From Bacteroidota bacterium (GTDB lineage Bacteria; Bacteroidota; Bacteroidia; M30B66), in NCBI GenBank assembly GCA_027483445.1, contig JAIXUS010000008.1:1-60486 (forward strand): a DNA stretch of 60,486 bases, given 5' to 3'. The position numbers were made by a program, and so were the translations under genes. Of the stretch, positions 9,537-54,660 are shown one piece after another (position 1 is the stretch's first letter; each line of letters begins with the position of its first letter). A model generated the notes under the pieces. That model ran no database searches, was not told the DNA's origin, and was given only the letters and a program-made list of their open reading frames with translations.

Positions 9537-9581
9537 CGGTTTGAATTGAATGCGTTTAAAATGAATTGAATGCGTTGTTTG

Positions 9582-33214: not shown

Positions 33215-33235
33215 CAAAAAAGAGCAACCACTTAA

Positions 33236-33275: not shown

Positions 33276-33778
33276 AATACTTTAACATTCATACTATTTC
33301 CTTAGGCTATTATTGAATTATATCTCCTTGAAAAGCGGGTATGCTTTCTTGACAGTGGAATCTTGAATAAGCCATTCAATGTGCATGATTAATCATTCAT
33401 TAAGTACATTAAAAACCAATAACGAATGATAAAACATTCATACAATAGTCCTAATTCTTATTTTCAGCTTCCGGATTAAAGAAAATCAGTTTATTCCATC
33501 ACGAAGTTTTGTGTTGTGGCCATCACCTGCCCAAAGCCAACCATTCAAGGTAAGGCTTTTAAGCTTCATCTGGTCGAAGCGTTGCCGAGTTTCCAATTGA
33601 CTCTACTTATGGCTAACTGAAAAAGACATACACTGCACTTCTGGCAAAGCAAATAGCAATCGTTACAAATTCAGTATGCATGAATTTTCAAAAGCCAGAT
33701 ATTAACCTTGCATTAAGCATCATTCAATCACGGGTTAAAGTGTTATGAATTACGCCGGTGAGCATTTTTTGTCAGGCT
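33276..33778. other. AT-rich intergenic region
   Basis: About 500 bases between the truncated T9SS gene and hipT. It carries short repeated CATTCAT words (CATTCATAC twice, near 33290 and 33445) but no frame, hairpin or promoter that I can support. Confidence 0.5.
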
Positions 33779-34720: not shown

Positions 34721-35049
34721 CAGTTATCCTCCTCTTTTATTTCTTGTACACTTACAGCTCCTATGCAATCTTTACAACAGGCCAGTAATAAACCCATTCG
34801 GTCTCGCGGGTTGAGTTTCCAATTTTTTTCGGCGATATCCAACAACCAGCCTTCGGGTATCAGTCCATCAAAAAACGGAAACAAGACCTTAGCGTTGAAA
34901 GCGGCTTCCTGGATGGGCAAGGTTAAACTCACCGGACGTGCATTGGGCTGTGCTGCATACGCTTTGTCGTACACAAAATGATACCCTTGCTCATCCTGAC
35001 TGAGCCAGCCGACCAATCGGTCATCTATTTTTATCGCGGCTTTTCGCAT
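34720..35049 (-). CDS. hipS: HipS-like protein (separate HipA N-terminal subdomain)
   Basis: 109 residues matching the N-terminal subdomain 1 of HipA: VGWLSQDEQGYHFVYD, RPVSLTLP and FFDGLIPEGWLLD. In HipBST operons this small protein, not HipB, acts as the antitoxin for the kinase. It lies between hipB and hipT and is translationally coupled to hipT. Alternatively it could simply be a split HipA whose two halves reassociate. Confidence 0.85.
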   Translation of the reverse strand: MRKAAIKIDDRLVGWLSQDEQGYHFVYDKAYAAQPNARPVSLTLPIQEAAFNAKVLFPFFDGLIPEGWLLDIAEKNWKLNPRDRMGLLLACCKDCIGAVSVQEIKEEDN

Positions 35050-35094
35050 CTTGAGGAAATTGGAATTTTCTAAACTGTTAACTGGAATCAGCCT

Positions 35095-35304
35095 TTAAAA
35101 CTCAGCCTTGGATGTCTTAGGTACGGCACCCACCTGGTAGCCGAACAGTTGTAGTACCTGGTTCACTTTGTCTAACCGCAGACTTTCCTTGCCCTGCTCG
35201 AGTTCACGAATGAAACGCAAACCCACACCGGCTTTCGCGGCGAGCTCGGGCTGAGTGAGTTTCACCAATCTACGCTTGTCTTTTACGAAGTCTGTCAGAT
35301 TCAT
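35095..35304 (-). CDS. hipB: HipB-like HTH repressor
   Basis: 69 residues from the ATG at 35302-35304; a 16-codon extension would read through the first operator. XRE-type helix-turn-helix (KLTQPELAAKAGVGLRFIRELEQGKESLRLDKVNQVL). First gene of the hipB-hipS-hipT operon, 45 bases before hipS. Four operator-like palindromes lie upstream, the first starting within three bases of the start codon, indicating tight autorepression. Confidence 0.88.
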   Translation of the reverse strand: MNLTDFVKDKRRLVKLTQPELAAKAGVGLRFIRELEQGKESLRLDKVNQVLQLFGYQVGAVPKTSKAEF

Positions 35305-35309
35305 TGTAT

Positions 35310-35443
35310 ACCCTTTGGGGTGCAAATATAGTAAAATGTTGCACGAATACACCCTTTAGGGTATAATTATGTGGAAATATTTCTGAATATACCCTTTCGG
35401 GTACGCATCAACTTATAATGGTATTCATTATACCCGAAAGGGT
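35310..35443. promoter_or_regulatory. Four-operator array of the hipBST promoter
   Basis: Four copies of the palindrome ACCCTTTNGGGT: ACCCTTTGGGGT (35310-35321), ACCCTTTAGGGT (35351-35362), ACCCTTTCGGGT (35391-35402) and ACCCGAAAGGGT (35432-35443). Start-to-start distances are 41, 40 and 41 bases, close to four turns of DNA, so bound dimers would lie on the same face. Immediately upstream of hipB; presumably HipB binds here. Confidence 0.8.
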
Positions 35444-35774
35444 GCATTTTCGATCGGAAATCCATAAACCAAGAAGGAGCAATAGCCGTTCCGCTGAACA
35501 CCGGCCTGCTGCAAAACCCTGAACCATGAATGAAGGAGAGGTTAAGGGCGTTGTTTGGGGAATCCAATTCCCAATAGCGACTATGGCTCCAAAATCTATT
35601 TGCTCCTTGAAGTCTTTGAAATCCAGGAGCCAGGCCACCAACCCGCCAACCCTCAAGCCACGCCAGCCCGGTGACCCCTAGTTATATCGACTACGCCTTT
35701 AACCAACCGCCAGTTTACGTCCTTCGTTGAGGAGTTCGGCGGGGTTTAAGTAGACCTTATTAGCTCAGCGACAC
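35444..35774. other. Intergenic region between hipBST and the MORC operon
   Basis: About 330 bases. A minus-strand frame (GGLVAWLLDFKDFKEQIDFG...) and a plus-strand frame are open but have no protein family character, and the downstream part is neutral. No terminator recognised for the AIPR gene. Confidence 0.4.
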
Positions 35775-38150: not shown

Positions 38151-39130
38151 AATATTGTTTTTATCACGTTTTCCGTTAGAACATCAAATGAGTTGCAGGC
38201 TGAAATGTCAATCTGATATTTTACATTATAGATGGCATCACTAATCAGGTGCTCTTTCAAAATTAAGGGAAAGCCTTCCTCTATGCGAAAGTACCTTTGG
38301 TTGTTAACTGAATAACTAATCTCATTGTAATTTTCAATCATATCATTACTCAATCCAACACGTTCAAGTCTGGTTTCAAATTCCTGTAGCAATTCAAAGT
38401 CATGAACAATAAGATCTTTAATTTCTTTTATGATGCCCGCAAGTGAATTCTGATTACCTGTTGTTTCAGTTACTAAAATAAGTCCAAGAAAAAGGTTGTT
38501 CCAAGAAGTAAAATCAAGCTGTTGTTCATTAGATATGTGAACCGAGGGGTTACTTGCTTTGGATGTTTTTATCTCAACTGCGTTTCGGTTTCTTGCGAAG
38601 TCCTGATTTGCGCTCTCAGCACCCCTCCAAGAAAGCATAGCCTCTCTAAACTTGGTGGTAGAAAGCAAGAGTTGCCTTAGGAAAAACAATTCACCAAATA
38701 AACCTCGTTGTTTTTCGGTGGATAATAATTCGCCTGTTGCTTTTGAAAATAACTTTTTCCAATAATTTACTCTTTGGTTGATTAATGTCAGAGCCTCGTG
38801 GTTCTCTGATATAGAATGGAGTTTTTCAACGATGTCCTCGATGAACATTGTAAAAATATCAGTCAAATCTTTTTCAAGGAGAATAATAGTGAATTCAGTT
38901 TTTGTTTGGTTAAATGGGATTGCTTGTATTTCAACACCTCTAAACTTGCGCAAGAAGTTTTTACTTAAAGAGGTGTTTGAGTCAAGCTCCAGTTGAAACA
39001 TTCTTGCGCCTGTTGCACCAATTAGCCCAATAAAACAATTAAGCCCAAGAATAGATTCAATTCGTGTTTTTACTACATCTTTTTTGGATGAAGACTCTTG
39101 ATCCAACCAAATTTTTTTTAAATCAATCAT
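38147..39130 (-). CDS. PD-(D/E)XK nuclease-like protein (DUF4420)
   Basis: 327 residues from the ATG at 39128-39130, overlapping the Z1 gene by eight bases; a second ATG three codons earlier is possible. The middle carries RGLFGELFFLRQLL (conserved Glu), WRGAESANQDFARN (Asp) and AVEIKTSKA (E-x-K), the active-site layout of PD-(D/E)XK restriction-like endonucleases. In the predicted MORC-Z1 restriction systems this is the DNA-cutting subunit. The C-terminal third is variable. Cutting specificity would depend on the methyltransferase and partner proteins. Confidence 0.88.
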   Translation of the reverse strand: MIDLKKIWLDQESSSKKDVVKTRIESILGLNCFIGLIGATGARMFQLELDSNTSLSKNFLRKFRGVEIQAIPFNQTKTEFTIILLEKDLTDIFTMFIEDIVEKLHSISENHEALTLINQRVNYWKKLFSKATGELLSTEKQRGLFGELFFLRQLLLSTTKFREAMLSWRGAESANQDFARNRNAVEIKTSKASNPSVHISNEQQLDFTSWNNLFLGLILVTETTGNQNSLAGIIKEIKDLIVHDFELLQEFETRLERVGLSNDMIENYNEISYSVNNQRYFRIEEGFPLILKEHLISDAIYNVKYQIDISACNSFDVLTENVIKTIL

Positions 39131-41945
39131 TAACGTCATCGTGGTCGTCACTTTGTTGTGGTTCTTCTTCTGCGTCAGAGTTTTTCGGAGGCCTTGCAGC
39201 ATATTCAAATTTCACCTCATTTTCCAGTTCAGGAAAAATTATTCCAAAGCCCAATAAGGGAGTGTCATGATTTAATCTTGACGAAACTCTTGGGTCTAAA
39301 GGCATAAAAACTAAAAGGGGTGTTCCTTTTGCTTTTCTCAGCTTCTTTATTTCTAACTCATCTGTATTAACATCGGCATCAAGATCAACAATTCGCGACG
39401 CTTTATCCAATATGGCATTTGAAGAACCTTTTGTTGCAAGTTCATTTTGACCCTCCTTCAAGTCTCGAAAAGCAACGCCTGAATTTTTAAATGATTCGTC
39501 TATTGATGATAAATCAGTTCTGAATGTTGGTAATCCGTGCAAACGATGATTTACTTCTTTTCTTGTGTTTTTTTCTTTTTTAGAGCTTTTGACTGTGCTA
39601 CTAGAAGTGAGTCTAAGTGATACTGACCAATTCTGGAAGACTCCTGATTGGTTCTGTCTTTCAATATAGTCCCTTATGATATCGAGTCGTATTCTATTAC
39701 TTGTAAGCTTGTAGGAATCAAGGAAGGCTAGAATTATGTCGCTACTTACGTTTTCCCAAAGCACCGTGCTTTTACCAAGGCTTTTTCCGAGTTTTAATTT
39801 TTTTAATGTTTCATGTAATAAATTGAAATTATGATCAACGCTAACTTGATTATTATCAAACTCGAACGTTTGTTTTACATCACCTGAAAATGAAAGTTGA
39901 ATTTTCTCATGATCTCTCATTTTAGTTAGCGAAGTTATTGTCAACATTCCTGAGTGTGTTCTCACTTTTAACTGAAAATCTTCTGGTCGCATATCTTTTG
40001 CGGCCAATTCATCAAAATCGGCTCTCATTTCTTCTGTAGCCATGGTTACATGGCGATACCACCCAACTAGATCCTCGGTAGTATATAATCTGCACAGGTC
40101 AATATAGCCAGGTCTGTAACCAAACCATCTGCCCATTTGCATAAGTGAATCATACATTCGAGTTGTTCGCAAATAATAGCTGACCGACAATCCTTCTAGG
40201 GTAATTCCTCGGGCAAGTTTATTTCCACCAACAGCAATAACCGAGAGGTTTGTACCTGCATCTTCATACTTTTTATAATTGATTTCTTCAATGTTGTGGT
40301 ATTCCAGATTTCTTGTATTGTTGGTTCCATGTACAGCACGGACTTCTATTTTATTAACCGCATTAGTTAATTCGGATTTTACCTGATCCCACGAATACGT
40401 TTTGATCTTCGGATCTCTATATGACAGGTTTTCAAGCACATTCTCAGTGGTTACAATAAAATCGTTTTTGTAAAGGTTTTCCAGATCCAAAAGAATGCTT
40501 CCTTGCCCTGATTTGATCTGCCTTTTGTAATCTCTTAGAACTTCATTGACTATCCATGCAATTCGGTCGATCCAGGCTACCCTCAGGGCAACATGAATCA
40601 ACATTGAGTTGTGTTTTTTTTCATGGCCTCTTAAACGCCTTACCGTGCAGGTGAGAATAAAGGACTTTATTGATTCTTTAAGTGATCTTGGGATATCATC
40701 CGGAAGGAGATCTCTATTTTCCCGGTTTATTGTTTTAGGGAACCAGGGTTCCTGATCTTCCGCAGGCCTGATAATATCCAACCCTTCAAATGTTTCATTG
40801 GTTTTTTCATTCTCAAAACCAAAAACTTGAGCAGCACCAATGTAATTGGATGGCGGTGGAATATTAATAATGAAGTCTCGTGGAAACAGATCTTCACCAA
40901 CTTTTAGAGTCACATCCTTAACCATTGTTTCGAGTTCTTCGCTCCATGTTGAAGGAATGAAGAGATTTGCGTAAGGTGTTGCTGTGTAGCCAATGAAGGT
41001 ATTCTGATTAAATAAGTTAAGCAATGTCCTTATGAGGCGGTTAATTGTCCTTACATCTATTTCTGTTCCTGAATTGACTGATGCATTGTCGGCTTCATCA
41101 TCAATTACAAGCACCGGTACATTGTGAATCTTTCTGTTCCCTGAAGAGTCATCCACGGCGAACTGATTTAGCCAGAGAATCAGGTTTTCCAAGACACTCT
41201 TGTTCTTTTTTATCACAAGAACTGTTGGGCTGTTACCACCGATTGGTACATTTAAACGTGTTGCAATACCTCTGTTAAAATCGCCTTTGTCATCAGAAGA
41301 AGTGTAAGAATAAATTTCTGTATCGACTTTGTATTCCCCAACTCCTATTTTATTGTTTTTATGCCTCAATATAAAATCCGCGCTATTTCGGCCTATGTAA
41401 CCCTCGTCAATTCTAACTTGGGTCTGGGACCGTAATGTATTGTGCACTCCAGCAATAACAATTATCAGTTTATAACCAGCATCTGTAGCTTTGTTGATCA
41501 GTCCAGTATAGTTTGCTGTTTTGCCAGACTGAACATTACCGACAACCATGCCGCGACGATCCCATCTTCCCTGAGTTTTAGGGTTAACACACTTGTCAAG
41601 TATTTTATTCGTCAAGTCATCCAGATTGTCTATCGGAAAAGAACCATCCTTTGTTTTGAGCCAAGATCGGTATCTTTTCCAAAGCTGCCATGGATAATTG
41701 CCTGGGATATCGTGTAACCAAGGTTTTACATCTGCGTTGACCAATTGAGTTGCTTGCCCTTGAAAAACCTCAAAGTCATATTCCAATTGTTCAATCAGGT
41801 CGATTAAATCAACATTAGGGTACTGCTGTTTTATTAAAGGGTTTTCAGCTACAGCTCTAATATCGTCAGAGTCGATTTCACGTATTCTCTTAATATCTCC
41901 TAAGAATATATGGCAGACATTACGAGCGCTTTCTAATTCTTTCAT
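39123..41945 (-). CDS. Z1-domain superfamily II helicase
   Basis: 940 residues. Walker A GNVQSGKT (136-143), Walker B LVIDDEADNASV (DDEAD at 282-286), motif III-like FIGYTATPYANLF (about 320), and motifs V/VI in GGNKLARGITLEGLSVSYYLR and MQMGRWFGYRPGY (about 600-640), with the Z1 domain between. A DNA-dependent ATPase that presumably translocates or opens DNA for the associated nuclease. Starts one base inside the MORC gene stop (TAATG) and overlaps the nuclease gene. A charged C-terminal tail (DAEEEPQQSDDHDDVND) is notable. Confidence 0.92.
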   Translation of the reverse strand: MKELESARNVCHIFLGDIKRIREIDSDDIRAVAENPLIKQQYPNVDLIDLIEQLEYDFEVFQGQATQLVNADVKPWLHDIPGNYPWQLWKRYRSWLKTKDGSFPIDNLDDLTNKILDKCVNPKTQGRWDRRGMVVGNVQSGKTANYTGLINKATDAGYKLIIVIAGVHNTLRSQTQVRIDEGYIGRNSADFILRHKNNKIGVGEYKVDTEIYSYTSSDDKGDFNRGIATRLNVPIGGNSPTVLVIKKNKSVLENLILWLNQFAVDDSSGNRKIHNVPVLVIDDEADNASVNSGTEIDVRTINRLIRTLLNLFNQNTFIGYTATPYANLFIPSTWSEELETMVKDVTLKVGEDLFPRDFIINIPPPSNYIGAAQVFGFENEKTNETFEGLDIIRPAEDQEPWFPKTINRENRDLLPDDIPRSLKESIKSFILTCTVRRLRGHEKKHNSMLIHVALRVAWIDRIAWIVNEVLRDYKRQIKSGQGSILLDLENLYKNDFIVTTENVLENLSYRDPKIKTYSWDQVKSELTNAVNKIEVRAVHGTNNTRNLEYHNIEEINYKKYEDAGTNLSVIAVGGNKLARGITLEGLSVSYYLRTTRMYDSLMQMGRWFGYRPGYIDLCRLYTTEDLVGWYRHVTMATEEMRADFDELAAKDMRPEDFQLKVRTHSGMLTITSLTKMRDHEKIQLSFSGDVKQTFEFDNNQVSVDHNFNLLHETLKKLKLGKSLGKSTVLWENVSSDIILAFLDSYKLTSNRIRLDIIRDYIERQNQSGVFQNWSVSLRLTSSSTVKSSKKEKNTRKEVNHRLHGLPTFRTDLSSIDESFKNSGVAFRDLKEGQNELATKGSSNAILDKASRIVDLDADVNTDELEIKKLRKAKGTPLLVFMPLDPRVSSRLNHDTPLLGFGIIFPELENEVKFEYAARPPKNSDAEEEPQQSDDHDDVND

Positions 41946-43420
41946 TATTCAAAGTACTCAATTAGTTGTGTATACTGGTTGAAGGGTTCGATGTTGAAAA
42001 TCTGTTTTATGGCCAGTTCGCGATCCAGACCACTTGATTTAAGTGAACGGTACATCATTTTGGCTAGTTCAATTGTACCAGAATCGGGTTCAGCTTGGTT
42101 CTGTCTAAGTTCATGACTATCTGGTTCTTCACTATGAAATTGAATAATAGACTCAACAGGCGTAGTCTCTCCAATCAATTTAAGTGCTGTTCGAAATTCA
42201 GAAGCAGATATAGATTCTTTATCTAGAAGACTTTTAATAACTGCATGTTCTTCATTGATGTAATAATGCCGCACATCATCACGGGTCTTTCTTGCCTTCC
42301 AGACAGGTTGAAATTCAAAACTTGTTATAGAATCATCAAGCATGATTTGATTTCCTCTGAACCGGTGAACTGCTCCAGCTGCTTTTCTTGTCATCTTTCC
42401 GAGACGAACGAGATCCTTTCTAACTGTAAGTGAAGGTGTAGCTGTAGCTTTCTTGATGTCGATTTTCCAATCGTGATCCAAAGTGTTGGGAATATCAACT
42501 AAAATTCTGGCGTTTTTGAAATGTTCATTCTTAGGAAACAGACCAAGCCAGTCACCATATAGCAACAATCGGCTGTTACGATAAATGTAGAAGCCTTGAA
42601 AACGATACCAATCATCGGCTTTTGCACTTTTACGCTCCTCTGGATTCAGCTTGGATATGTGAGGCAAAACGTAACATTTTACTTTTACCTGATTACGGTC
42701 CAGATCCTCTTGCGCGATTAGTTGTCCTCCATCAGCTTCTTTCATAAAAGGGTCCCATGGTGTCAACTTATTCCCATTCACACAAATAGTCAACTTCTTT
42801 TTTTCCAGATAGCGATGAAAGACTAAACTGAGGTGATCCTCCACTTTTTCAAACTCTTCGAGAAAGACGATTCTTGCCGCTTCATTTTTAATGTTGGCAT
42901 TACCGACTAATCTGTCTAACTTTTCCCATAAGACCGTGGTACCATGATCGAGCTTTTCCAAAGGCTCCTGAAATACTCCGTCGGATAAATAATCGAGCAG
43001 ATTCCACTTACCTGTTTCGTTTACAAAATCTAAATCCCAATGTCTCTTAATAACATTATGATCTTTTTTCCTTGATAGAACGGTAAGTGCTTTACATTGA
43101 GAAAATGATGAGGTTTTTAATCCAAGCCCGAATCTACCCAAATCATGTTCTTCACGATCGTCTTTAGGATCTTTACTGCCCGGAGTCATGGCTTCAATCA
43201 ACTCGTTACGATTCATTCCTTCACCATCATCAGTTATGGAAACCCATGATTTTTCACCAGCCCATTCATACTGTATCCAGACATTATTTGCCCGTGCAGA
43301 AATGCTGTTGTCGATTATATCCGCAATAGCTGTTTGCAGATTGTAACCGAATGCCCTGAAAGTGTTAATCATGGCTCTGGCTTTGGGCGGAGTTTCTTCA
43401 GCTATTTTTTGCATATACAT
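41945..43420 (-). CDS. MORC/MutL-type GHKL ATPase
   Basis: 491 residues. ATP-binding GHKL motifs: N-box AIADIIDNS (34-39), G1 DDGEGM (64-69), G2 LGRFGLGLKTSS (94-105) and HGTTVLW (about 165). After the ATPase the S5-like domain contains DHDWKIDIKKATATPS with the conserved Lys. Bacterial members of this group were identified as the precursors of eukaryotic MORC proteins and sit in predicted restriction-modification operons with Z1 helicase, nuclease and methylase. Likely a DNA clamp/loop-forming ATPase. A 139-base gap separates it from the KaiC-like gene; it is coupled to Z1. Confidence 0.92.
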   Translation of the reverse strand: MYMQKIAEETPPKARAMINTFRAFGYNLQTAIADIIDNSISARANNVWIQYEWAGEKSWVSITDDGEGMNRNELIEAMTPGSKDPKDDREEHDLGRFGLGLKTSSFSQCKALTVLSRKKDHNVIKRHWDLDFVNETGKWNLLDYLSDGVFQEPLEKLDHGTTVLWEKLDRLVGNANIKNEAARIVFLEEFEKVEDHLSLVFHRYLEKKKLTICVNGNKLTPWDPFMKEADGGQLIAQEDLDRNQVKVKCYVLPHISKLNPEERKSAKADDWYRFQGFYIYRNSRLLLYGDWLGLFPKNEHFKNARILVDIPNTLDHDWKIDIKKATATPSLTVRKDLVRLGKMTRKAAGAVHRFRGNQIMLDDSITSFEFQPVWKARKTRDDVRHYYINEEHAVIKSLLDKESISASEFRTALKLIGETTPVESIIQFHSEEPDSHELRQNQAEPDSGTIELAKMMYRSLKSSGLDRELAIKQIFNIEPFNQYTQLIEYFE

Positions 43421-43559
43421 TTATTAATTAACATTCAGTCAAAGAAGCGACGGAAAAAGCTCAAAAAACTTTCCTTATCGAATGTTATTCGAGGTTCTTT
43501 AAGGCAATAATTATTTTCTAAACTTTTAACATACACAAAAAAACTAAGGTGTTTATGGA
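43421..43559 (-). promoter_or_regulatory. Intra-operon gap with inverted repeat, possible internal promoter
   Basis: The only sizeable gap in the eight-gene operon. It contains TCGAAT-GTT-ATTCGA (43478-43492) and an AT-rich stretch with a TAnnTTTTTTG-like word near 43541-43552 on the minus strand. It could hold a second promoter for MORC-Z1-nuclease-AIPR. Evidence is weak. Confidence 0.35.
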
Positions 43560-46040
43560 TTATACTTCTTCGTAAATCGTTAAATCTTGCCTATTCCATC
43601 TTAATAAACCATTTGGAGGATTTTGTCTTGAGCTTCTTACAGAAATTAAATATTCGCGATTGTTCTTTTGTTTATTTAATCTGTCTTCCTCTAACATTAA
43701 AAAATAATCTGCTGCTCTAACAATTCCATGTAGAAATGGTTTTTGCGCGGTTTGATATAGCATAAAATCCTGTGGTGTTTGGAGCTGAGAACCTGATTCT
43801 TTATTATCTAAATCAATTAATGATATATTGGTGAATGTTGTCACTACAGTAACAGAATACCGTTTTAAAATGCTGTATAAAAGCGGCCAAATCATGTCAG
43901 ATTCTTGTAACTTTTTAAACTGTAAAAATACATTGTGTAATCCATCAAGTAAAACTCCAGTGAAAGGCTCTCCTTCCAGAGAGGCCTCTTCTAATAATCT
44001 AACAATTTTATTTACAAAGTCTTCAGCAGTGAGGAAACCAGGATAAAAGGACTGCACTTTTATCATACTATTCCGCGGATAATACCCTTGAAAAGTGTTT
44101 ATGAATTGTCGATCAAGACGGTCTTTTAATACTTGATAGTAGTCTTCAGGATATAAAAAAGATAGAATGAGGACTTTACGAAGTTTTTGAGATTTAAGCT
44201 GTATCTTATTTTTAGTGAAACTCTTTATTCTTATATCGACTAAAGATTCTTTATCTATAATTGGTGTTAAAAGGAGTTTAAGACCAAACCCTGCCTTGCC
44301 AGAACTGCCATGGCCGTGCACTAATATTTGAGAATTGCAAGCCACAGGAAGAAAAGGCTTGTATATAACTATGTTTCCATCATGCTGAATATCCAATGTA
44401 TGAATGAAGTCGATATTTGATGGGAGATTTATTCTTATTCTCTCCCTCTTATCGAGTTGCGATGGAACTTGCGGACTAAGACGAAATCCATTACTACTGG
44501 AAAGGTGGAATACATGCGCTCCCTGCCGCGAAATCTGGTGCCGCGTTTTTAGTAACTGAAAAACACGAATGGGCTTTTCATATTTGTTGTCTATCCCTTC
44601 TTGCTTTAATTGTATTGCGACGTCAACCAAATAATCCAACTTAAACTTCCCAGGAATTTCTTCTGCAGCAATAAGAACAACCAATGCTCCCATATTCCTG
44701 CATTGCTCAATAAATTTCTCTATTTCATCATACAAAATATCTTTATTGAACAATTCATTGACATTATCAATTACCAATAGTAGTGGACATGTTGCTGGTA
44801 TCTGAGACAGCACAGCAGCATCATTAGCAACTTGATTTTTTATATCTTTTTGAAGGGTTTTTAGAACATCTGTGATTTGGGTTATGGTTAAACTCTCATA
44901 AAACTTTAATGCCTTGAACCATGCTAATTGATGATCATTAGCTTTGCCTAATTTGAGATTATTTCTATTATTCTCAAAGACCCTCATTTTTCTCAAATAG
45001 TCGGGCACCAAACTGTTAAGACGAGTTTGTAAATCTTCTGGATTTTCTTCAAGACTTATGTATAGCGTTTTTGTTCCTAAAGGTTCTAAAACAGCAGCAA
45101 GTGAGAGAGCCGCAGAGGTCTTACCAGTGCCAGGCTGCCCATGTAAGCTAAAAACAAGGCCATTAGTTGACGTTCTTTTCAGTCCTCCGAAGAATAAAAG
45201 ATCCGCACCTCGCCATGGAACAGGGATACCGAAAATCCAGTTGTTAATCTCTGCTGAGTCTGGGAGCTCTGTATACAAGCTGGAAACCCTGAAACTATAC
45301 TTTTCAGTGGATGAGTTGTTGCTGTATCGGTCTGACAGTTCCTGCCTACTTGTGCTATTGGGTTGACAAAAAAACTCAAGATGATTTTCATTCTTAAACC
45401 ATAAATAAGCAAAACCTTTAACTGCCAAAATATGTCCGGTTAAATAATTTATCCTTGAGGTAACCGTTCTTGGGTTGACATTCTTTCTAATATCCGGCCA
45501 TCTTGCATAAATATCAATGTTACTTTTAAATGAACTAATCGCTTTTTGTATGTCTTCTTCTGAAAATTCATCCATGTAAGGTGATATGGATTTCAATTCA
45601 GGGTGTCGAAAATGCAATTTAAGGAAATGGAAGAGCATTCCTCTACAAAGCACGAAGGAGTATGAAGCTGTTTGTGGTTCCTCTGGGACAGTAAGGGCAT
45701 GATACAGTATGTGAAGTGGTGAAGGTAGAACATCACTCGATTTCTCATTGTTTCTAACTCGATTAAACGCATGAATTACTAGCTTTACAATTCTTGGAAA
45801 TTCATTTAATTTTCTCCTTCTTGTTGCACTTGTCGTTAATCCCTTGATAATATGGCCATCAAGGCCACTTGCACTAATTGATTTTACTTTTATATATCTT
45901 TCAAAGATACCACTTAAGTTTTCATCGTCTTCTCTAAGTTCTTTTCCAGATTTGTGCTGAATGTGGCAATACCACAGCGCCTTGTGAATGGCAGTAACCA
46001 AATCATCAAACAATTCAATGTATGGCAGTGAATTTTTCAT
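43560..46040 (-). CDS. KaiC-like tandem RecA-fold ATPase, unrecognised family
   Basis: 826 residues. An N-terminal helical domain (about 1-250) is followed by a RecA/KaiC-type ATPase: Walker A GQPGTGKT (301-308), TLYISLEENPEDLQTRL as in KaiC, Walker B CPLLLVIDNVNELF (about 418-431) and a KaiC-like closing segment IRVFQLLKTRHQ... (491-525). A second RecA-like domain has a degenerate P-loop GHGSSGKA (576-583) and Walker B-like FTGVLLDGLHNV (693-704). Tandem KaiC-like domains are known in KaiC itself and in archaeal signalling ATPases. Within this operon it sits between two unknown proteins and MORC. Role inferred only as ATP-dependent oligomeric switch or sensor. Confidence 0.82.
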   Translation of the reverse strand: MKNSLPYIELFDDLVTAIHKALWYCHIQHKSGKELREDDENLSGIFERYIKVKSISASGLDGHIIKGLTTSATRRRKLNEFPRIVKLVIHAFNRVRNNEKSSDVLPSPLHILYHALTVPEEPQTASYSFVLCRGMLFHFLKLHFRHPELKSISPYMDEFSEEDIQKAISSFKSNIDIYARWPDIRKNVNPRTVTSRINYLTGHILAVKGFAYLWFKNENHLEFFCQPNSTSRQELSDRYSNNSSTEKYSFRVSSLYTELPDSAEINNWIFGIPVPWRGADLLFFGGLKRTSTNGLVFSLHGQPGTGKTSAALSLAAVLEPLGTKTLYISLEENPEDLQTRLNSLVPDYLRKMRVFENNRNNLKLGKANDHQLAWFKALKFYESLTITQITDVLKTLQKDIKNQVANDAAVLSQIPATCPLLLVIDNVNELFNKDILYDEIEKFIEQCRNMGALVVLIAAEEIPGKFKLDYLVDVAIQLKQEGIDNKYEKPIRVFQLLKTRHQISRQGAHVFHLSSSNGFRLSPQVPSQLDKRERIRINLPSNIDFIHTLDIQHDGNIVIYKPFLPVACNSQILVHGHGSSGKAGFGLKLLLTPIIDKESLVDIRIKSFTKNKIQLKSQKLRKVLILSFLYPEDYYQVLKDRLDRQFINTFQGYYPRNSMIKVQSFYPGFLTAEDFVNKIVRLLEEASLEGEPFTGVLLDGLHNVFLQFKKLQESDMIWPLLYSILKRYSVTVVTTFTNISLIDLDNKESGSQLQTPQDFMLYQTAQKPFLHGIVRAADYFLMLEEDRLNKQKNNREYLISVRSSRQNPPNGLLRWNRQDLTIYEEV

Positions 46041-46045
46041 CTTTG

Positions 46046-46813
46046 TTACATTAAAACATGACTTGGCGATATAATAGGTAGTTTATCGCTAAAGGTTGAG
46101 AGGTGTGGTGAATTTTTGAAATCTTTTGATTCGTGAATTTGTGAATTTAAATCCAACTCTGCATTTACTGCAACAAGCTGCTTTAATTTAAACTCCAATA
46201 TTGCCTTAACGTCTTCATAATTTAAAATCAAAGGAAGTAGCTCCAAGCTCAGCCGTCTAAATAATTTAGGATCTGATTTTTCAGTCCAAATCAAAATCAA
46301 TTCAGTAAGTGCAGATATATCAGGCATAAATCCTTCTTTAAGTTTGTAGATCACAAAATCAAAAACATAATAATCTTTATCCACAGGTGCATATAGTGCT
46401 GCGAATGTCCATGGGTCATTGGTTTTAAGATAGGCAAGACCAATGTTGATAGTATCAGGCTTTACAAGTTCAGGAGCTTCTCTTAATACACAACGGATAA
46501 GTTCTTCCTTTTGGTAAATGTTTAATTTAACATTACCATTCTCCAACAATGAAATACTATCTTGTGCAAGTTGCTTACTATTTAGGCCAGCGCGACGTGC
46601 ATACTCAAAAAGCCTAGTTATGTTTGATGCATCATATTCGGCTATTTGATTCAGAATATCAAGAACCGTTTGCATTTCAACAATTCTATCTTGCATGGCT
46701 CGAGAGTTTCGATAAAAATCAGCCCGTCTATCCAAGTCACTCAGTCCGTTAACATCATGTAGGCCTGGATTCATGATCAAATTTTCTAGTTCTTTTCTGC
46801 CTTGTGCTTTCAT
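46046..46813 (-). CDS. Unrecognised helical protein, 255 aa
   Basis: No signal peptide or membrane segment. It is predicted mostly alpha-helical, with repeated hydrophobic-acidic helices (VEMQTVLDILNQIAEYD, ALTELILIWTEKSDPKLF, YEDVKAILEFKLKQLV) that resemble HEAT/ARM-like or adaptor proteins. No catalytic motif. Its start overlaps the stop of the 275-aa gene by four bases and its stop is five bases from the KaiC-like gene, so the three are made together and probably form a complex. Function unknown. Confidence 0.75.
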   Translation of the reverse strand: MKAQGRKELENLIMNPGLHDVNGLSDLDRRADFYRNSRAMQDRIVEMQTVLDILNQIAEYDASNITRLFEYARRAGLNSKQLAQDSISLLENGNVKLNIYQKEELIRCVLREAPELVKPDTINIGLAYLKTNDPWTFAALYAPVDKDYYVFDFVIYKLKEGFMPDISALTELILIWTEKSDPKLFRRLSLELLPLILNYEDVKAILEFKLKQLVAVNAELDLNSQIHESKDFKNSPHLSTFSDKLPIISPSHVLM

Positions 46814-47637
46814 TTTCCCTCTTTTTGAATAATGTCAATCTGCACTATGGATTTGTATAGATTTGGAGTATGCACGTATTCCTCAAGTCCATTCTGTTCT
46901 TCGCACTCCTGTAATGGCTTGGTCATTCCCCCAGGCTTGAATTGGGGGTAAAACTCAGCATCGAAAATTGTTGGTTTTGTAACCTTATGGCAATGCTTAA
47001 TATTATGTGAGTATAGGACTTTGTCTAGATCTTGATTTTCGGACAGTCCCGCGCGGCAATCCAAGGAGTTTTTTGAACTATTTGAAAAAACATCCTCTGT
47101 TTCATTACTTGGATAACTCCATTCAATATATGAACCTGTTTGAGCCTCTCCTAACTCAGGTTGCAGACCCGCAGGTAAAGCTGGCTTACCCAAATAGTAG
47201 TTAGCTTTATCAGGTTTATGCAGAATATCCTCTTTAATTGGTTCTGATAAAATTGCTTTGTAAAGCGCATTTCTGACCTTGATTGGTATATCTGGTTTTA
47301 ATAACTCTTTAACTCTTCTGGAAACGTCCCTTTTAGTGATTTCATTAATCCGTCCCTTAAAACGATTTACATCGTTTATTCTAATAAACAACGTAGCGCT
47401 TCCGCAATAATCTGAGCCAACTTGTTTTAGCATTCGAATGAATTCAAGGGAATATTCCAAAACTTCTTGACTTGAAGATGAAAACTGGCTGAGATATTGC
47501 AGGAACTGCATTTTTATGTTATTGTCTAACTGTTCATCGCTCTCAAAATTTTTCACAAATTCGGGTTTAACTTTTTTCAATTCAAGATAGCCTTTATTAT
47601 CCTTCATATTTTTGAACATGTTTAGAAAAAAGAGCAT
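46810..47637 (-). CDS. Unrecognised protein, 275 aa
   Basis: The first ATG (47635-47637) is 18 bases after the methyltransferase stop; internal ATGs at residues 7 and 11 are alternatives. The N-terminal half has a KGYLELKKVKPEFVKNF start and basic helices (NRFKGRINEITKRDVSRRVKEL); the C-terminal half is proline/aspartate-rich with scattered Cys and His (CRAGLSE, HNIKHCHKV, LQECEE) and ends in a beta strand (SIVQIDIIQKEG). I do not recognise a family. Fixed position between methyltransferase and KaiC-like ATPase suggests a structural or target-recognition role; this is inference. Confidence 0.72.
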   Translation of the reverse strand: MLFFLNMFKNMKDNKGYLELKKVKPEFVKNFESDEQLDNNIKMQFLQYLSQFSSSSQEVLEYSLEFIRMLKQVGSDYCGSATLFIRINDVNRFKGRINEITKRDVSRRVKELLKPDIPIKVRNALYKAILSEPIKEDILHKPDKANYYLGKPALPAGLQPELGEAQTGSYIEWSYPSNETEDVFSNSSKNSLDCRAGLSENQDLDKVLYSHNIKHCHKVTKPTIFDAEFYPQFKPGGMTKPLQECEEQNGLEEYVHTPNLYKSIVQIDIIQKEGK

Positions 47638-47655
47638 TGAGTCGTTTTAGTTAAT

Positions 47656-49248
47656 TCATTTTGGATTGATTACTTCAAAAACAATTTCACCAAGCAACTT
47701 TGCTAAATATGGAGGCACAGCGTTTCCAACTTGATGATACTGTGCGGTACGTGATCCACAAAATAAATAATTATCTGGAAATGTCTGTATTCTAGCCGCC
47801 TCACGAACGGAGAGACTACGACATTGTTCAGGGTCATAATGGATAAAATAATGTCCATCTTTTGCAATGTGACTTGTAACGGTAGTGGCAGGTTGGTCTG
47901 GGACTTGAACCCTGAATCTGTCTGAAAACTTCCCGGATTTTGCATTTACATGATCAGGCATTAATTCACTACTATGCAACTCAAACTCGTGTAATCTAGG
48001 AAACCGTTTATATTTTCTTGTGTAAAGACTTGAAAACATATATCGTTTCAAATCCTCAACAAGGTGTGAACGTGATTCATGGTTTGCTGCTCCTTTCATT
48101 TTTGGATCGTGATACCAACTGAACATCGGGTTCTCTTTGGAAGGAGTCTCGCAGGGGACAAACTCAGATCCAGTACCATTTGGTGGTGGAGAAATCCGTG
48201 TCTGAGGGCACTTTTTCTTTAATCCGTTCAAGTATTCAATTTCATTTCTGAATGAATTTATAATCTCAGACCAATTCTCATCAGTATCTTTTACATTCCG
48301 GTAAAATCGCTTTTTTTTATCATTTGAAATTAGACAACTATCTAGTGATCTGTTTATACCGCTTCTTATTTTGGGTAAATCTCCAATAATTTCCTCGAGT
48401 GTTATATGTTTTTCAGCCTTTTTTAATATTCTTGGTAAAGCTGATATGTCTTCACGGACTCCTAACAAAATAACACGATGTCTTTTTTGCGGAATACCGT
48501 ATTCTTCTGCACGAATAAGATAATCCCTATTATTATTATAAATTGGGTGTTTCTGATCAAACTTAGTGGCTTCGGTTGTAAGCGAAAAAATTTTATACTT
48601 GGGACACTTGCCTCTTTTAAACAATTTCGAAGGATTCTGAAGATCTCTTTTTATCAGATCAAACATTTTTTCACCATCTAAAACTGAAGAGAGTAATCCT
48701 TTTACATTTTCCATAACAAAGACCGCAGGATGATGCTTAGCGATAATTCTTAAGTATTCTTTGTAGAGGTACACCCTTTTGTCTCCATTGTCAAGTCTAT
48801 CTCCCCATTGTCTTCGTGAACGTCCGACAATGGAATATGCTTGGCATGGGGGGCCTCCGATTAAAACCCAATTCGTTGAGTGATTCAAAGCTTTTTTAAT
48901 TCTATAATCTACAAGCTCCGGAGGAAAATCTTTGTGCCCTAGTTCTGCGCACCATGCCTCTTCTTTTGCTTTTTTTGCTTGTGATGCATATTTCTCATAC
49001 AACTCTACTCGCAACCTTTTCTTAAGCTCTGAATCGGTTTGCATGACCATGTCGTAGTATTCGCTAGGCACTTGGTTGATAGGGAATTTTCTAAAAAAGC
49101 TCCTTAGTTCAAGAGTTTTGTGTGCGTTAATCTCCATTTCGATGGAAAGTCGAATATCAAAAACTCTTTTATTTCGTCTAACAACTGAAGAAAATCCTTC
49201 TCCAAGGCCTCCAGGTCCAGCAAATATGTCAATTACAGGAATCCCCAT
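47656..49248 (-). CDS. C5-cytosine DNA methyltransferase
   Basis: 530 residues. Transfers methyl from AdoMet to cytosine C5 in DNA. Motif I DIFAGPGGLGEGF (7-19), motif IV GGPPCQAYSIVG with catalytic Cys135, motif VI FVMENVKG (178-184), motif VIII QKRHRVILLG (about 257), a target-recognition region (about 290-450) and motifs IX/X in RSLSVREAARIQTFPDNY and YHQVGNAVPP. An insertion of about 60 charged residues lies between motifs I and IV. First gene of the operon; presumably protects host DNA from the DUF4420 nuclease. Recognition sequence unknown. Confidence 0.95.
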   Translation of the reverse strand: MGIPVIDIFAGPGGLGEGFSSVVRRNKRVFDIRLSIEMEINAHKTLELRSFFRKFPINQVPSEYYDMVMQTDSELKKRLRVELYEKYASQAKKAKEEAWCAELGHKDFPPELVDYRIKKALNHSTNWVLIGGPPCQAYSIVGRSRRQWGDRLDNGDKRVYLYKEYLRIIAKHHPAVFVMENVKGLLSSVLDGEKMFDLIKRDLQNPSKLFKRGKCPKYKIFSLTTEATKFDQKHPIYNNNRDYLIRAEEYGIPQKRHRVILLGVREDISALPRILKKAEKHITLEEIIGDLPKIRSGINRSLDSCLISNDKKKRFYRNVKDTDENWSEIINSFRNEIEYLNGLKKKCPQTRISPPPNGTGSEFVPCETPSKENPMFSWYHDPKMKGAANHESRSHLVEDLKRYMFSSLYTRKYKRFPRLHEFELHSSELMPDHVNAKSGKFSDRFRVQVPDQPATTVTSHIAKDGHYFIHYDPEQCRSLSVREAARIQTFPDNYLFCGSRTAQYHQVGNAVPPYLAKLLGEIVFEVINPK

Positions 49249-49947
49249 TTCTTTTTTGCTTTTAAAGTCATTTTGTCTGAACTCAATTCCATTTAAGGTT
49301 TAGATTGCTAAATTTAAGCTAATCATCATATCGTTTACTGCATCCTTAACACCACTTTTATCTAAAGCCAATAATAGTGAATTATTTTATTCACGCATCA
49401 TATTTGTAATTTTTAACGCTAAATGGTCTAAATGAATTGGTGTTGAGGGTCTTGATTTTTCATATAGCCTGAAATAGGCGTCACTATATCTTCATTGAAG
49501 GAGAACTAAAGGTATATAATTTATATTTTATTTAACAAGCCATACAAAGTTTGCTTGGCGCCACCCCATGAGAGCGATCCACACTTAGTTTCCTAAATTT
49601 TGTAATGTATTTACCTAAATACTTTTGTAGAATCTGAAGCTTTTTATAAGACCATCATCTCCTGTGCTATGCGCTTTCTTTTTAATCTCAACAGCGATTG
49701 AAATTGTCTCTTTCATAGTGTAATTCTACAATATTAACCTTTAGTATAAAAACTTCTCAAAACAAGTCTCCCCCCCCCAGCGCCACTGATCGCAGCCGGC
49801 AGCGCCGCCGGGGACTGCGAAGCAGAGGCAGGCCCCGGCGGACTAAAGGCGGAGAGCAGGATGCCCCACCCGTAAAGCTCAGCTTACCGAGGACTTAAGC
49901 TGGGCAGGCGCCCAAAAAAACATGCAGGAGAGGAAGCGCTGAAGTCG
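49249..49947. other. Intergenic region between methyltransferase operon and S9 peptidase
   Basis: The AT-rich part (49249-49769) probably holds the promoter of the methyltransferase operon. A 33-codon minus-strand frame (49615-49716, MKETISIAVEIKKKAH...) may be a fragment but is too short to judge. At 49770-49778 there is a run of nine C, after which composition switches to GC-rich repeat sequence (49780-49925). Confidence 0.5.
49780..49925 (-). repeat. GC-rich modular intergenic repeat, copy 3
   Basis: Minus strand begins CATGTTTTTTTGGGCGCCTG (49904-49923), continues with GGGCATCCTGCTCTCCGCC (49848-49866) and a perfect 9-bp stem CCGCCGGGG/CCCCGGCGG (49805-49813 with 49833-49841) whose loop contains a CTGC-GAA-GCAG mini-hairpin. 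The opening block matches the plus strand at 52180-52196, so the S9 peptidase gene is flanked by inverted copies. It could also serve as the transcription end of that gene. Confidence 0.5.
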
Positions 49948-52098
49948 CTACAAGTGCTCCATCAGGTAGCGTAGCACGGTTTGGTATAAATGCAGCCGGT
50001 CGCGGCCCGTTACGTTGTGTGGGTGCTCGGGGTAGATCATGTAGTCGATGAGTACGCCTTCGTCGACGCATTTTTTAAGCATCTCCTGGCTGTGTTGCCA
50101 TACCACCACATCGTCGACCGTGCCGTGGATGAGCATGAGGCGGTCTTTGAGGCTTTTGGCCGTGTTGAGTAGGTTCGCCTCCTCGTAGCCTTTGGGGTTT
50201 TGCGCCGGCGTGTCCATGTAGCGCTCGGTGTACATCACCTCGTACAGCGCCCAGTCGATAACCGGTCCGCCGGCCACTCCGGCTTTGAACAGCCCGGGAT
50301 TTTTGCTCATCATCAAAGTGGTCATGAAGCCGCCAAAGCTCCAGCCGTGGATGCCCATCCGCGAAACATCGGCCATGGGCAGGGTTTTCAGGTATTCGAT
50401 CCCGAGGAGCTGGTCTTCCATCTCCACTGTGCCCAGCCTTCCGTGTATCACCTGCTCGAATTCGAGTCCACGGTCTGCCGAGCCGCGGTTGTCGAGCGTC
50501 CACACCACATAGCCTTGAGCGGCGAGCCAGCTCATCCACAGCGAACCGCCGGCCATCCAGCTGTTGGTCACCATTTGGGCATGCGGACCGCCGTAGACGT
50601 AGATCACCACCGGGTATTTTTTGCCGGATTCCACATTTTTAGGGAGGTACAGGCGGCCGTTGAGGGGCGTTCCGTCGGCCGCCTTGAGCTGTACGATGCC
50701 CGGTTTGGGCAGATTGTAGCCCAATGTAGGGTCTCCGGAATCCTGCAAGCTGAGTACAATGCGGCCATCGGTTTGCTGCACCAGCGCTGTGTATGGATTA
50801 AACACGCTAACCTGAGCGATTTCAGCGCTGCTAAACTCATCGAGCAGATGCGTGCCGCTCCGGTTGATCTGCACCCTGTGCGTGCCATTGGCCATCTGGA
50901 GGCGCGAAGCCTTGCCGCTGAGTGCAATTTTCCAAACACCGCGCTGCAAACCGTCTCTTTCCGAAACGGTCACAAACAGTGTCTTTCCGGCTTCATCAAA
51001 ACCGTGGAAATCGGTCACAATCATTTTCTCGGGGCACAAAGCCTTGATGAGCCTGCCGTCGAGCGCATAATGGTAGAGTTGCGTGTAGCCATTGCGCTCG
51101 CTTTGCCAGATAAACTCGTTGGGCCGCCCCGGAATAAACACCGCAGGATGCTCAGGTTCAACCCATTGAGCATCAGTTTCGGTGAAGAGCGTTTTCACAA
51201 AGCTGCCATCGGCCACACGGTATTGGTTGAGCTTCATCTCGTTCTGGTCGCGGTTTACCACCGCTACGAGGATGAATTGCTCGTCGGGCGTCCACGCCAC
51301 ATTGGTGAGGTACTGCTCTTTCGGCTCGCCGGTTTGGAGGTACACAATGTTGTCGCTTGCCCAGTTATACACGCCAATGGTCACATGGTGGCTCGCCTGA
51401 CCGGCCATCGGGTATTTGATGTTTTGAAGGGTGGCAGGTTTGCTGCCCAGATGCACAAGCGGATAGTCGGTGACCATGCTCTGATCCATGCGGTAAAAGG
51501 CCAGCTGCGTGCCGGTCGGACTCCAAAAGGTGCCTTTGCTGATGCCAAATTCGTTGCGGTGCACCGATTGCCCGTAAACGATGCCTGAATTGCTTTCGCG
51601 GCTGATGTTGCGCACCGTGCTGCCTTCCTGCACAAACAGGTCGTTTTTCTGCGTAAAAGCCACGCGATCGTAAGTGCTAGTAAAATCGGGGTTTTCGGCC
51701 TCCAGGCCAATGTTGAGTTGCGCTTCTTCGCGCTTCGTTTGCCAATTGTAGCGTATCAGTTTGCCTTTGAAGAGGTAGGTAAAACGCGCTTCATCGAGCC
51801 AGTTGATGAGCGGGAATCGTTTCAGTTCAGCATTCAACTCGCTGAGGTTGAGCACCGTGTCGGGCTTAAACTTTTGCGACCCTTTGGCATTCAGGTCGAT
51901 GGTATGCACAATCAGTTTCTCTTTGGCCACCCAGCTCACGCGGTTATTGGTGCCGGCCCATTTCAGCTGGCGGAGGGTCACCGGATTGAGTTCCGGTTTG
52001 CGAAAAACATCTTCGAGACTGAGGTTTTTCTGTGCAAAAGAAGCGAGCGCGATACTAACAAAAAGCAGCAATAACAGCGGTTTCCGAACGTGTTGCAT
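49948..52098 (-). CDS. S9-family dipeptidyl peptidase IV-like serine protease
   Basis: 716 residues from the ATG at 52096-52098, giving a clear signal peptide (KPLLLLLFVSIALASFA|QK). An eight-bladed propeller domain (about 30-470) precedes the alpha/beta hydrolase domain with nucleophile GWSFGGFMTT, catalytic Asp in HGTVDDVV and His in YPEHPHNVTG. It removes Xaa-Pro or similar dipeptides from peptides in the periplasm. Base composition is GC-rich like the core genome, in contrast to the accessory genes on both sides. Confidence 0.94.
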   Translation of the reverse strand: MQHVRKPLLLLLFVSIALASFAQKNLSLEDVFRKPELNPVTLRQLKWAGTNNRVSWVAKEKLIVHTIDLNAKGSQKFKPDTVLNLSELNAELKRFPLINWLDEARFTYLFKGKLIRYNWQTKREEAQLNIGLEAENPDFTSTYDRVAFTQKNDLFVQEGSTVRNISRESNSGIVYGQSVHRNEFGISKGTFWSPTGTQLAFYRMDQSMVTDYPLVHLGSKPATLQNIKYPMAGQASHHVTIGVYNWASDNIVYLQTGEPKEQYLTNVAWTPDEQFILVAVVNRDQNEMKLNQYRVADGSFVKTLFTETDAQWVEPEHPAVFIPGRPNEFIWQSERNGYTQLYHYALDGRLIKALCPEKMIVTDFHGFDEAGKTLFVTVSERDGLQRGVWKIALSGKASRLQMANGTHRVQINRSGTHLLDEFSSAEIAQVSVFNPYTALVQQTDGRIVLSLQDSGDPTLGYNLPKPGIVQLKAADGTPLNGRLYLPKNVESGKKYPVVIYVYGGPHAQMVTNSWMAGGSLWMSWLAAQGYVVWTLDNRGSADRGLEFEQVIHGRLGTVEMEDQLLGIEYLKTLPMADVSRMGIHGWSFGGFMTTLMMSKNPGLFKAGVAGGPVIDWALYEVMYTERYMDTPAQNPKGYEEANLLNTAKSLKDRLMLIHGTVDDVVVWQHSQEMLKKCVDEGVLIDYMIYPEHPHNVTGRDRLHLYQTVLRYLMEHL

Positions 52099-52410: not shown

Positions 52411-53880
52411 TTATTTAGCATATTGTCCTTTTTTAAAATTTTCAGCAGGACTTGTCTTGTCAACATAAATTATCCCATCAAATAGTTCATAAAGGTTAGT
52501 TGTCCAAAGAGCTGATTTTTCGTTGATGTAAACTGCTCCTGCTTCATAATGCTCGTATTCTCTATTTACAAAATCTTCTAACTTTTTGTCACTTGAAATT
52601 TCTTTTAAGTCAACAAAGAATATTGGTGTTTCTAATTTTGAAAATGTATTTGTCAAGTAACTTTTGGGGTGAGGTTTTACAAAATTATCGGAAACAAGCC
52701 AAAGTTCGTCTTGAAAAAGACTTTTTCCAAAGCTGTACATTAAGTAAAAAATATTCGTAGAACTAGGACTTTGAGCAACAAAACCGCCTTCGCTAAAACT
52801 AAAACCTATATTATAGTATTTATCTTTGTAAATATCTTTCAAATGTGTTCCCATCCAATTACCTGACTTGAAGTCGTCTGAAAAACTACCTTTCCCGATA
52901 TGACCATTATGAGCCCAGAGCATTATTTTTGCATCGTTGTTAATGTCTCTAATCCATTTAATGTTTTCAGCCATTGATTTGTCCCGGAAATTATAAGCAG
53001 TATCAAAATCTTTATTTCTAAAATAACTTAATTTTTGTCCAAGCACTTTCATTGATTGTTGAGCGAATATATAATCATATTGGTTTTGAGATTTCAAAAA
53101 ATCTTCCCGACTGGTAACAAATGCTTCCAGTTTTTTTAGTTTGTCTTGATTTTCTTTTTGAAGCTTTTCTAAGCCAATATCATCTAACTCTTTCAATTTA
53201 TTGGCGTCATTATCAAATTTTGCAGGCAATAAACTTTTATCAAAATTTGGAATTGATTTAGAAAGATATCTTTCAAGCCAAGCAATTTCCGATGTCGCAC
53301 TTTGCATGTCGTAACCATAAAATTGAGTTTGTGCTTCCTTCGGTTTTCCTATATTGTAATTTCTCATCCATTCAATCAGGTCTAAAACTTCTTGTGATTG
53401 CCAAACCCAATACCCATTTTTTGATAATGCTTCTTTTGCATTTCCTTCCCCATAAATTACATATTTATTTATGTCATAACAAGCTCCAAAATTAGCTTCT
53501 ATGCCAAATAGCTTTACATTGTGTTTTACTACTAAATACTTAAATAGTTTTGCTTTTAACTCAAAAAACTCTTTTGTTCCGTGTGTTGCTTCGCCAAGTC
53601 CAATTACTTCGGCATTTTTTATTTTATCATCAAGAAAGGATAATTCCGCTGTGTCAACTTTTGTGGTTGATTGAATTGTGTGAATGAGTGTTTTAAGTTT
53701 GGATAGACTTTGTTCGTCCAATGAAACTTCTTTTTCCTTTTTTGAAAAAATGGAAGTCAAGGTATCGCCAAAAAATGGTTCACCTAAAACAGCCATTGCG
53801 AAAATTCTTGTAATTAAAGTGCCTAACAATAAAATAATTATCACGGAAATTATTAGTCTTTTCTTTGTTTTGGGTTTCAT
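52411..53880 (-). CDS. Erythromycin-esterase family protein
   Basis: 489 residues with an N-terminal transmembrane anchor or signal (RLIISVIIILLLGTLITRIFAMAVLG). The erythromycin-esterase domain shows EVIGLGEATHGTKEFFELKA (conserved Glu and general-base His), LFGIEANFGACYDINKYV, GYWVWQSQEVLDLIEWMRNYN, FYGYDMQS and IMLWAHNGHIGKG. Relatives include macrolide esterases EreA/EreB and many proteins of other or unknown function; resistance cannot be assumed. AT-rich and flanked by attC-like repeats D and E, so probably acquired as a cassette. Confidence 0.87.
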   Translation of the reverse strand: MKPKTKKRLIISVIIILLLGTLITRIFAMAVLGEPFFGDTLTSIFSKKEKEVSLDEQSLSKLKTLIHTIQSTTKVDTAELSFLDDKIKNAEVIGLGEATHGTKEFFELKAKLFKYLVVKHNVKLFGIEANFGACYDINKYVIYGEGNAKEALSKNGYWVWQSQEVLDLIEWMRNYNIGKPKEAQTQFYGYDMQSATSEIAWLERYLSKSIPNFDKSLLPAKFDNDANKLKELDDIGLEKLQKENQDKLKKLEAFVTSREDFLKSQNQYDYIFAQQSMKVLGQKLSYFRNKDFDTAYNFRDKSMAENIKWIRDINNDAKIMLWAHNGHIGKGSFSDDFKSGNWMGTHLKDIYKDKYYNIGFSFSEGGFVAQSPSSTNIFYLMYSFGKSLFQDELWLVSDNFVKPHPKSYLTNTFSKLETPIFFVDLKEISSDKKLEDFVNREYEHYEAGAVYINEKSALWTTNLYELFDGIIYVDKTSPAENFKKGQYAK

Positions 53881-54141: not shown

Positions 54142-54660
54142 TTAATACCGAAATCCTAAAGTTAGAGGTAATAAAAAAGCCTGCTGAGTTAGTAATATTC
54201 CAGACTTAATGTATATGCCAAATTTTTCATTGATTTTGTAATTTATGCCAAGTCCAACTTCTGTGTGTATTGAACCTGTCCCACCTGCATATTGATTCCA
54301 AATATGATTATATCCCAATCTTAAATTAAATAGAGGTGTTACTCTGTTTTTTAATGGCAAATAATCGAAATCCCCAATTATCGAAAACCCATTAACACCT
54401 TCAAAATTATAGAATCCTAAACCAATTCCTGTATGCAGTTTTCTGTCATTAAACGTCAGCCCATTTATGAAAAAGAGAGCAATGCCGTTCTGCCTATTGT
54501 TAAGATGATAACCTCTCCAATTAATTCCTGGGTCAACAGTAATAGTCCGTAATAAATAATGCTGATAACCGGCCTCTAAATGTCCGGAATATGCTATTTG
54601 AGCTTCTGTCGGTAAAGTCAAGCCAACCAAAAGGGCAAGAATTGCTATGGAGTGTTTCAT
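54142..54660 (-). CDS. Secreted beta-barrel-like hypothetical protein, 172 aa
   Basis: Signal peptide (KHSIAILALLVGLTLPTEA|Q) followed by alternating strands (YSGHLEAGYQHYLLR, HTGIGLGFYNF, PLFNLRLGYNHIW, HTEVGLGINYKI) ending in the outer-membrane consensus aromatic (LTLGFRY). Probably a small outer-membrane beta barrel. Its stop lies 31 bases before attC-like copy E in gene orientation, making it the upstream cassette of the second array. Function unknown. Confidence 0.75.
   Translation of the reverse strand: MKHSIAILALLVGLTLPTEAQIAYSGHLEAGYQHYLLRTITVDPGINWRGYHLNNRQNGIALFFINGLTFNDRKLHTGIGLGFYNFEGVNGFSIIGDFDYLPLKNRVTPLFNLRLGYNHIWNQYAGGTGSIHTEVGLGINYKINEKFGIYIKSGILLTQQAFLLPLTLGFRY

Follow-up and report, generated by a model that had tools for sequence, protein, structure and literature searches.

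The window analyzed here, a stretch of 60,486 nucleotides, carries on its minus strand an operon in which two open reading frames and a KaiC-like ATPase gene are found between a DNA methylase gene and a gene for a MORC ATPase. The question raised by this locus is what the two unrecognised proteins, termed p275 and p255, are, and what they and the ATPase contribute to the operon. The gene order on the minus strand is methylase, p275, p255, KaiC-like ATPase, MORC, Z1, DUF4420 and AIPR (Table 1).

Table 1. Features of the operon and of its immediate downstream neighbours; positions are those of the window.
Feature	Position	Strand	Remarks
C5-cytosine DNA methylase	47656–49248	−	PF00145 E = 1.6e-46; PCQ and ENV motifs
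p275	46810–47637	−	275 aa, unassigned to any known family; helix predicted over the N-terminal ~130 aa; Cys/His in the C-terminal half
p255	46046–46813	−	255 aa, no known family; predicted all-helical, solenoid-like; possibly a diverged p275 paralogue
KaiC-like ATPase	43560–46040	−	826 aa; PF06745 E = 5e-11, 42.8 bits
Gap, KaiC-like gene to MORC gene	43421–43559	−	139 nt; RNA fold −27.7 kcal/mol
MORC/GHKL ATPase (MzaB)	41945–43420	−	PADLOC MzaB E = 7e-98
Z1-domain SF2-type ATPase (MzaC)	39123–41945	−	PF10593 E = 1e-77; PADLOC MzaC E = 3e-156
DUF4420 PD-(D/E)XK nuclease (MzaD)	38147–39208	−	PF14390 E = 3e-62; PADLOC MzaD E = 6e-16
AIPR protein (MzaE)	35775–38150	−	PF10592 E = 2e-89; PADLOC MzaE E = 7e-89
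HTH protein	35095–35352	−	HipBST-like set
HipA N-terminal domain protein	34720–35049	−	HipBST-like set
HipA_C kinase-like protein	33779–34720	−	HipBST-like set

The reading frames of p275 and p255 overlap by 4 nt (positions 46810–46813, ATGA), p275 begins 18 nt past the methylase gene, and 5 nt separate p255 from the KaiC-like gene. The coordinates given for the pair in an earlier note on this DNA are exact, and the tight coupling it described is real. A codon model trained on the remaining operon genes gives in-frame log-odds of +0.19 for p255 and +0.16 for p275, compared with +0.12 to +0.17 for six neighbours and −0.20 to −0.64 for the other five frames of the two genes. The coding signal is even along both. 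p275 and p255 are intact, real genes, and are neither pseudogenes nor chance open reading frames.

The description of both proteins as unrecognised also holds: neither has a significant match in Pfam, NCBIfam, PHROGs, PADLOC or the PDB. A Pfam match of p275 to Glyco_trans_4_3 (E = 0.004) is below the cut-off and is judged to be due to chance. p275 had been characterized as having a basic N-terminal half and Cys/His residues in the C-terminal half. The N-terminal half is only mildly basic (net +5), but the Cys/His bias of the C-terminal half is real (3 Cys and 5 His), and to our knowledge this set of residues matches no recognised zinc pattern.

p255 had been called helical, which fits its AlphaFold2 model. 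This single-sequence model is all-helical with 12 helices and is of low confidence (pLDDT 58), with values of about 69–79 across residues 141–210. The structures closest to it are those of PPR, ARM and designed repeat proteins. The best Foldseek E-value is 0.03, and the VIA Z-scores, from a model of this low confidence, reach at most 8.1, which is in the range usual for helical models; both lists are read as indicating a helical repeat arrangement only. The p275 model (pLDDT 35) is not usable.

The two proteins may be related to one another. Positions 11–181 of p255 align collinearly with positions 4–178 of p275 with a BLOSUM45 score of 99, compared with 48 ± 7 for shuffled sequences (Gumbel p about 2e-4), and the pair ranks first against 370 unrelated real proteins, the best of which score 81 to 90. 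The signal drops with BLOSUM62 (p about 0.006, rank 2 or 3), and the BLASTP alignment, which covers 186 residues, has E = 0.27. These values come from trials of several matrices and pairs, and significance is reached only with the matrices suited to distant homology. The alignment suggests, but does not prove, that the two proteins are tandem paralogues that have diverged.

The KaiC-like protein is placed in the KaiC family by the Pfam criterion, as its PF06745 score exceeds the cut-off of 26.6 bits. Its first RecA domain displays an intact Walker A motif (GQPGTGKTS, positions 301–309), a pair of glutamates at positions 331–332 and a Walker B motif, VIDN, with D425. The C-terminal half has a degenerate Walker A-like sequence, GHGSSGKAG, at positions 576–584 and an LLDG stretch that is a possible Walker B. 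These features suggest a degenerate second RecA domain, although the C-terminal region has no significant match to KaiC domains or to Pfam. The N-terminal 265 amino acids, searched separately, have no Pfam match either. Neither kaiA nor kaiB is found among the genes of the operon.

That the block is set within a restriction or defence operon is supported by the PADLOC and Pfam matches to MzaB, MzaC, MzaD and MzaE. The methylase, MORC, Z1 and DUF4420 proteins each have the catalytic motifs that were sought in them. The annotated start of MzaD is uncertain, and the real start may be further downstream. Mza (mzaABCDE) is reportedly an anti-phage system, a description attributed to Gao et al. in 2020. 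None of the proteins of the operon matches the sigma-like MzaA in PADLOC, and since MzaA is missing this is not a canonical mzaABCDE operon. By its gene content it is a predicted defence system of the Mza type, which fits the MzaA-less form of the MORC/AIPR-bearing “Type II” systems with methylase, Z1 and DUF4420 (PMC9523054).

Taken as a whole, the operon forms an island. Its G+C content is 37%, as against 48% over the initial 33 kb of the window and 55% and 50% in the genes on the other side, and the neighbours of the S9 peptidase gene differ in five family members.

Two other features of the window are of note. A tripartite set of HipBST-like toxin-antitoxin genes (33779–35352) follows the Mza operon immediately on its downstream side and shares its strand. 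In addition, three minus-strand repeats, at 1408–1275, 54110–53980 and 52399–52270, run for about 130 nt, share the sequence TAACAGyGnAnAATCGCCAGTT and begin 10–32 nt after stop codons. Two of the three end in AACC(A/G)GCGTTT..GCGCGA(G/A)CCGTTAG. They look like integron attC sites, and if so, the ParE-like toxin pair (1418–2046), the 172-aa gene (54142–54660) and the erythromycin-esterase-like gene (52411–53880), which lie in low-GC stretches, would be gene cassettes. Among the loci compared, the attC-like pattern is found only in L085, which is the genome of the window itself.

The operon was compared with MORC-Z1 loci from two sources: genomes of the phylum supplied about 12, one of them on another contig of the same assembly, and viral contigs about 16. 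p275, p255 and the KaiC-like gene have no match in any of these approximately 28 loci. The methylase gene directly precedes MORC in seven of them (L036–L039, L060, L067 and L068). In L035 and L043 a vsr gene, encoding a Vsr endonuclease, is located between the two, and most of the remaining genome loci have a vsr gene nearby; none is found in the window. The two proteins had been described as fixed between the methylase and the KaiC-like ATPase, but this arrangement is seen at the present locus only. Because in relatives the methylase gene abuts MORC or has vsr intervening, the three genes and the 139-nt gap that follows them, about 4.1 kb in all, appear to have been inserted at a single site of an operon that is conserved in other respects. 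The G+C content of the block is 35%–36%, similar to the 36%–40% of the remaining operon, and this makes a very recent acquisition from an unrelated donor less likely.

Several of these loci, and other MORC loci, have features of their own. The locus on the second contig of the assembly (L034, contig C81) is a canonical Mza locus with a WYL protein, MzaA, MzaB (E = 5e-199), Z1, DUF4420 and AIPR; its methylase gene is on the opposite strand, and the contig could be an assembly contaminant. L038 (positions 9242–11687) is an Mza operon with Vsr, and further upstream it has a SMODS nucleotidyltransferase and an S_4TM effector, a CBASS-like pair. The other MORC loci, L074–L078, L044 and L045, have MORC without Z1, in a different set of small genes consisting of methylase, a protein of ~180 aa, MORC, and proteins of ~275–290 aa and ~600 aa, which is a separate type of MORC operon.

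Searches for the block beyond the MORC-Z1 loci were negative. For the KaiC-like protein no homologue was found in 395 genomes of the phylum, 395 of the class and 10 of the order, nor in the orders and class of the Mza-bearing relatives. p255, p275 and the N-terminal region of the KaiC-like protein gave nothing in 296 genomes, and a p255/p275 profile nothing in 133. These genome searches number close to 2,000 in overlapping samples, all inside the phylum of the window. Plasmid collections yielded no homologue, phage collections only generic DnaB-like P-loop matches, and viral contigs only short P-loop matches. A scan of 84,980 species was made with a hand-made degenerate alignment of the KaiC motifs (its second row synthetic), reduced finally to two short patterns, and it excludes close relatives only. 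Its single match, in a Desulfosporosinus MAG, is an ordinary two-domain KaiC beside signalling genes. Other weak matches proved to be RadA (G090 and G048) and the C-terminal end of an ABC transporter (G745), and a match of 57 residues in G625 covers the same P-loop stretch and is taken as generic. The three-gene set, which had been suggested as one that might travel without MORC/Z1, was found neither without nor with them in genomes, plasmids, phages or viral contigs. At tblastn sensitivity the block appears to be rare in the phylum of the window and to be missing from the collections of plasmids and phages, which is not to say unique in nature. It is most likely a lineage-specific add-on to an Mza-type operon.

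The explanation preferred here, tentatively and at somewhat less than an even chance, is that p275, p255 and the KaiC-like protein form an accessory module that gates or directs restriction, its genes having been inserted after the methylase gene and before the MORC-Z1-DUF4420-AIPR arm. The KaiC-like protein would act as an ATP-driven motor or switch of the RecA type and may assemble into a ring; one of its halves would have a working ATP site and the other would be degenerate. Its partners p255 and p275, which may be tandem paralogues that have diverged, would serve as helical adaptors, produced in amounts matched to it, and would connect it with DNA or with the machinery of methylase, MORC and Z1. 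The module would be co-expressed with the methylase, and the switch with its adaptors could gate the MORC/Z1/DUF4420 machine or load it on DNA. Complex formation, the adaptor role and the gating role are inferences. The MORC/Z1/DUF4420 arm is itself probably a restriction machine, by analogy with the CglI and NgoAVII systems, in which the Z1 ATPase works jointly with a separate nuclease and ATP hydrolysis is required for cleavage (PMC4267653).

Evidence counted in favor of the accessory module is the overlap and spacing of the genes, the coding signal, the matches to MzaB through MzaE, the KaiC domain match and its intact motifs, the apparent insertion at a single site as judged from relatives, the operon-like base composition, the predicted helical, solenoid-like nature of p255 and the collinear p255/p275 similarity. 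Against it, the block is seen at a single locus, so conservation lends no support to a joint function of the three genes or to one with Mza; the 139-nt gap could separate the block from the restriction arm, and the p255/p275 similarity is significant with distant-homology matrices only. The predicted RNA fold of this gap has a z-score of −3.3 relative to shuffled sequences, none of which folds equally well. There is no Rfam match across the operon region 33000–50000, which includes the gap. It is possible that the gap is a regulatory element.

The gap also enters into a second explanation, in which the block is an independent defence or toxin module, introduced between the methylase and MORC genes, that shares only the promoter and does not act through Mza. 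Its internal overlaps and the gap with RNA structure after it speak for such a unit, as does its absence from all other Mza loci seen, and unrelated defence genes adjoin Mza elsewhere, as does the SMODS synthase and S_4TM effector pair beside L038. However, the block has not been found alone anywhere either; it starts 18 nt past the methylase stop codon, and no promoter of its own is apparent above chance. A free-standing module is possible but rather unlikely.

The position of the block bears on a third explanation, replacement of the sigma-factor-like MzaA by a regulatory module in which the KaiC-like ATPase and its helical partners control the expression or timing of the restriction arm. 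In L034 MzaA, a sigma-70-like protein with ankyrin repeats, is encoded just upstream of MORC, the place held here by the module, and the structured 139-nt gap would be a leader between the module and MORC. Such a replacement is nevertheless improbable: no DNA-binding domain is recognised in any of the three proteins, and many Mza-like loci have neither MzaA nor a substitute, mzaA being present in only a few (PMC9523054).

The proposal of the earlier note, that p275 and p255 supply target recognition or phage sensing or form a bridge to the methylase, is consistent with their co-translation and their location next to the methylase gene. It is distinctly improbable, as relatives encode the methylase and the DUF4420/Z1 proteins in operons that lack p275 and p255, and neither of these two matches a nucleic-acid-binding family. 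That the two are orphan genes without a defence role, recently formed or acquired, would agree with the lack of homologues in every search but is very improbable: codon usage is normal over the full length of both, their stop and start codons are coupled, they may be paralogues of each other, and the operon around them is intact.

With the accessory module as the preferred reading, a more far-reaching proposal is that the p275-p255-KaiC-like set is a new kind of ATP-driven accessory module, in which a KaiC-type motor works with two helical adaptors paralogous to each other, and which is added to Mza-type restriction operons to control or redirect the MORC/Z1 machinery. This is unlikely. Mza-type systems bring together a MORC ATPase, a Z1 translocase-like protein, a nuclease and AIPR, and the presence of a KaiC-type ATPase and two unmatched proteins at one exact point constitutes a natural experiment on the control or sensing parts that such systems accept. 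The operon could also link RecA/KaiC-type switches to restriction, a claim limited by the single example.

In comparison with known systems, the KaiC-like protein resembles the KaiC/RadA/DnaB-type RecA ATPases (PF06745) in its first domain, where it has Walker A, the glutamate pair and Walker B. Unlike these, it adds the unmatched 265-aa N-terminal region, has no second KaiC domain recognisable by sequence, and is not accompanied by kaiA or kaiB. MORC operons with a distinct SF2 helicase, displaying the motif DThhQXuRhFG, are described in the portion of Iyer, Abhiman and Aravind (2008; PMC2292703) drawn on here; the Z1 protein of the window carries the sequence DSLMQMGRWFG. MORC, that helicase, a nuclease of the RE fold and a methylase are common to the MORC-associated restriction operons of that portion and the present operon, and the same portion names neither a KaiC-like partner nor small proteins similar to p275 and p255. 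The three-gene CglI/NgoAVII system, like the window operon, pairs a Z1-domain ATPase with a separate nuclease, alongside a C5 methylase (PMC4267653), but its nuclease is of the PLD type instead of PD-(D/E)XK and it is without MORC, AIPR and a KaiC-like gene. The closest likeness is to the Mza and “Type II” systems (PMC9523054), in which MORC, Z1, DUF4420 and AIPR occur in the same order together with a cytosine methylase. The window differs from these in having no MzaA and in having p275, p255 and the KaiC-like gene between methylase and MORC, as in no other locus seen. The kind of operon is already known, and what is unusual in it is the three-gene block.
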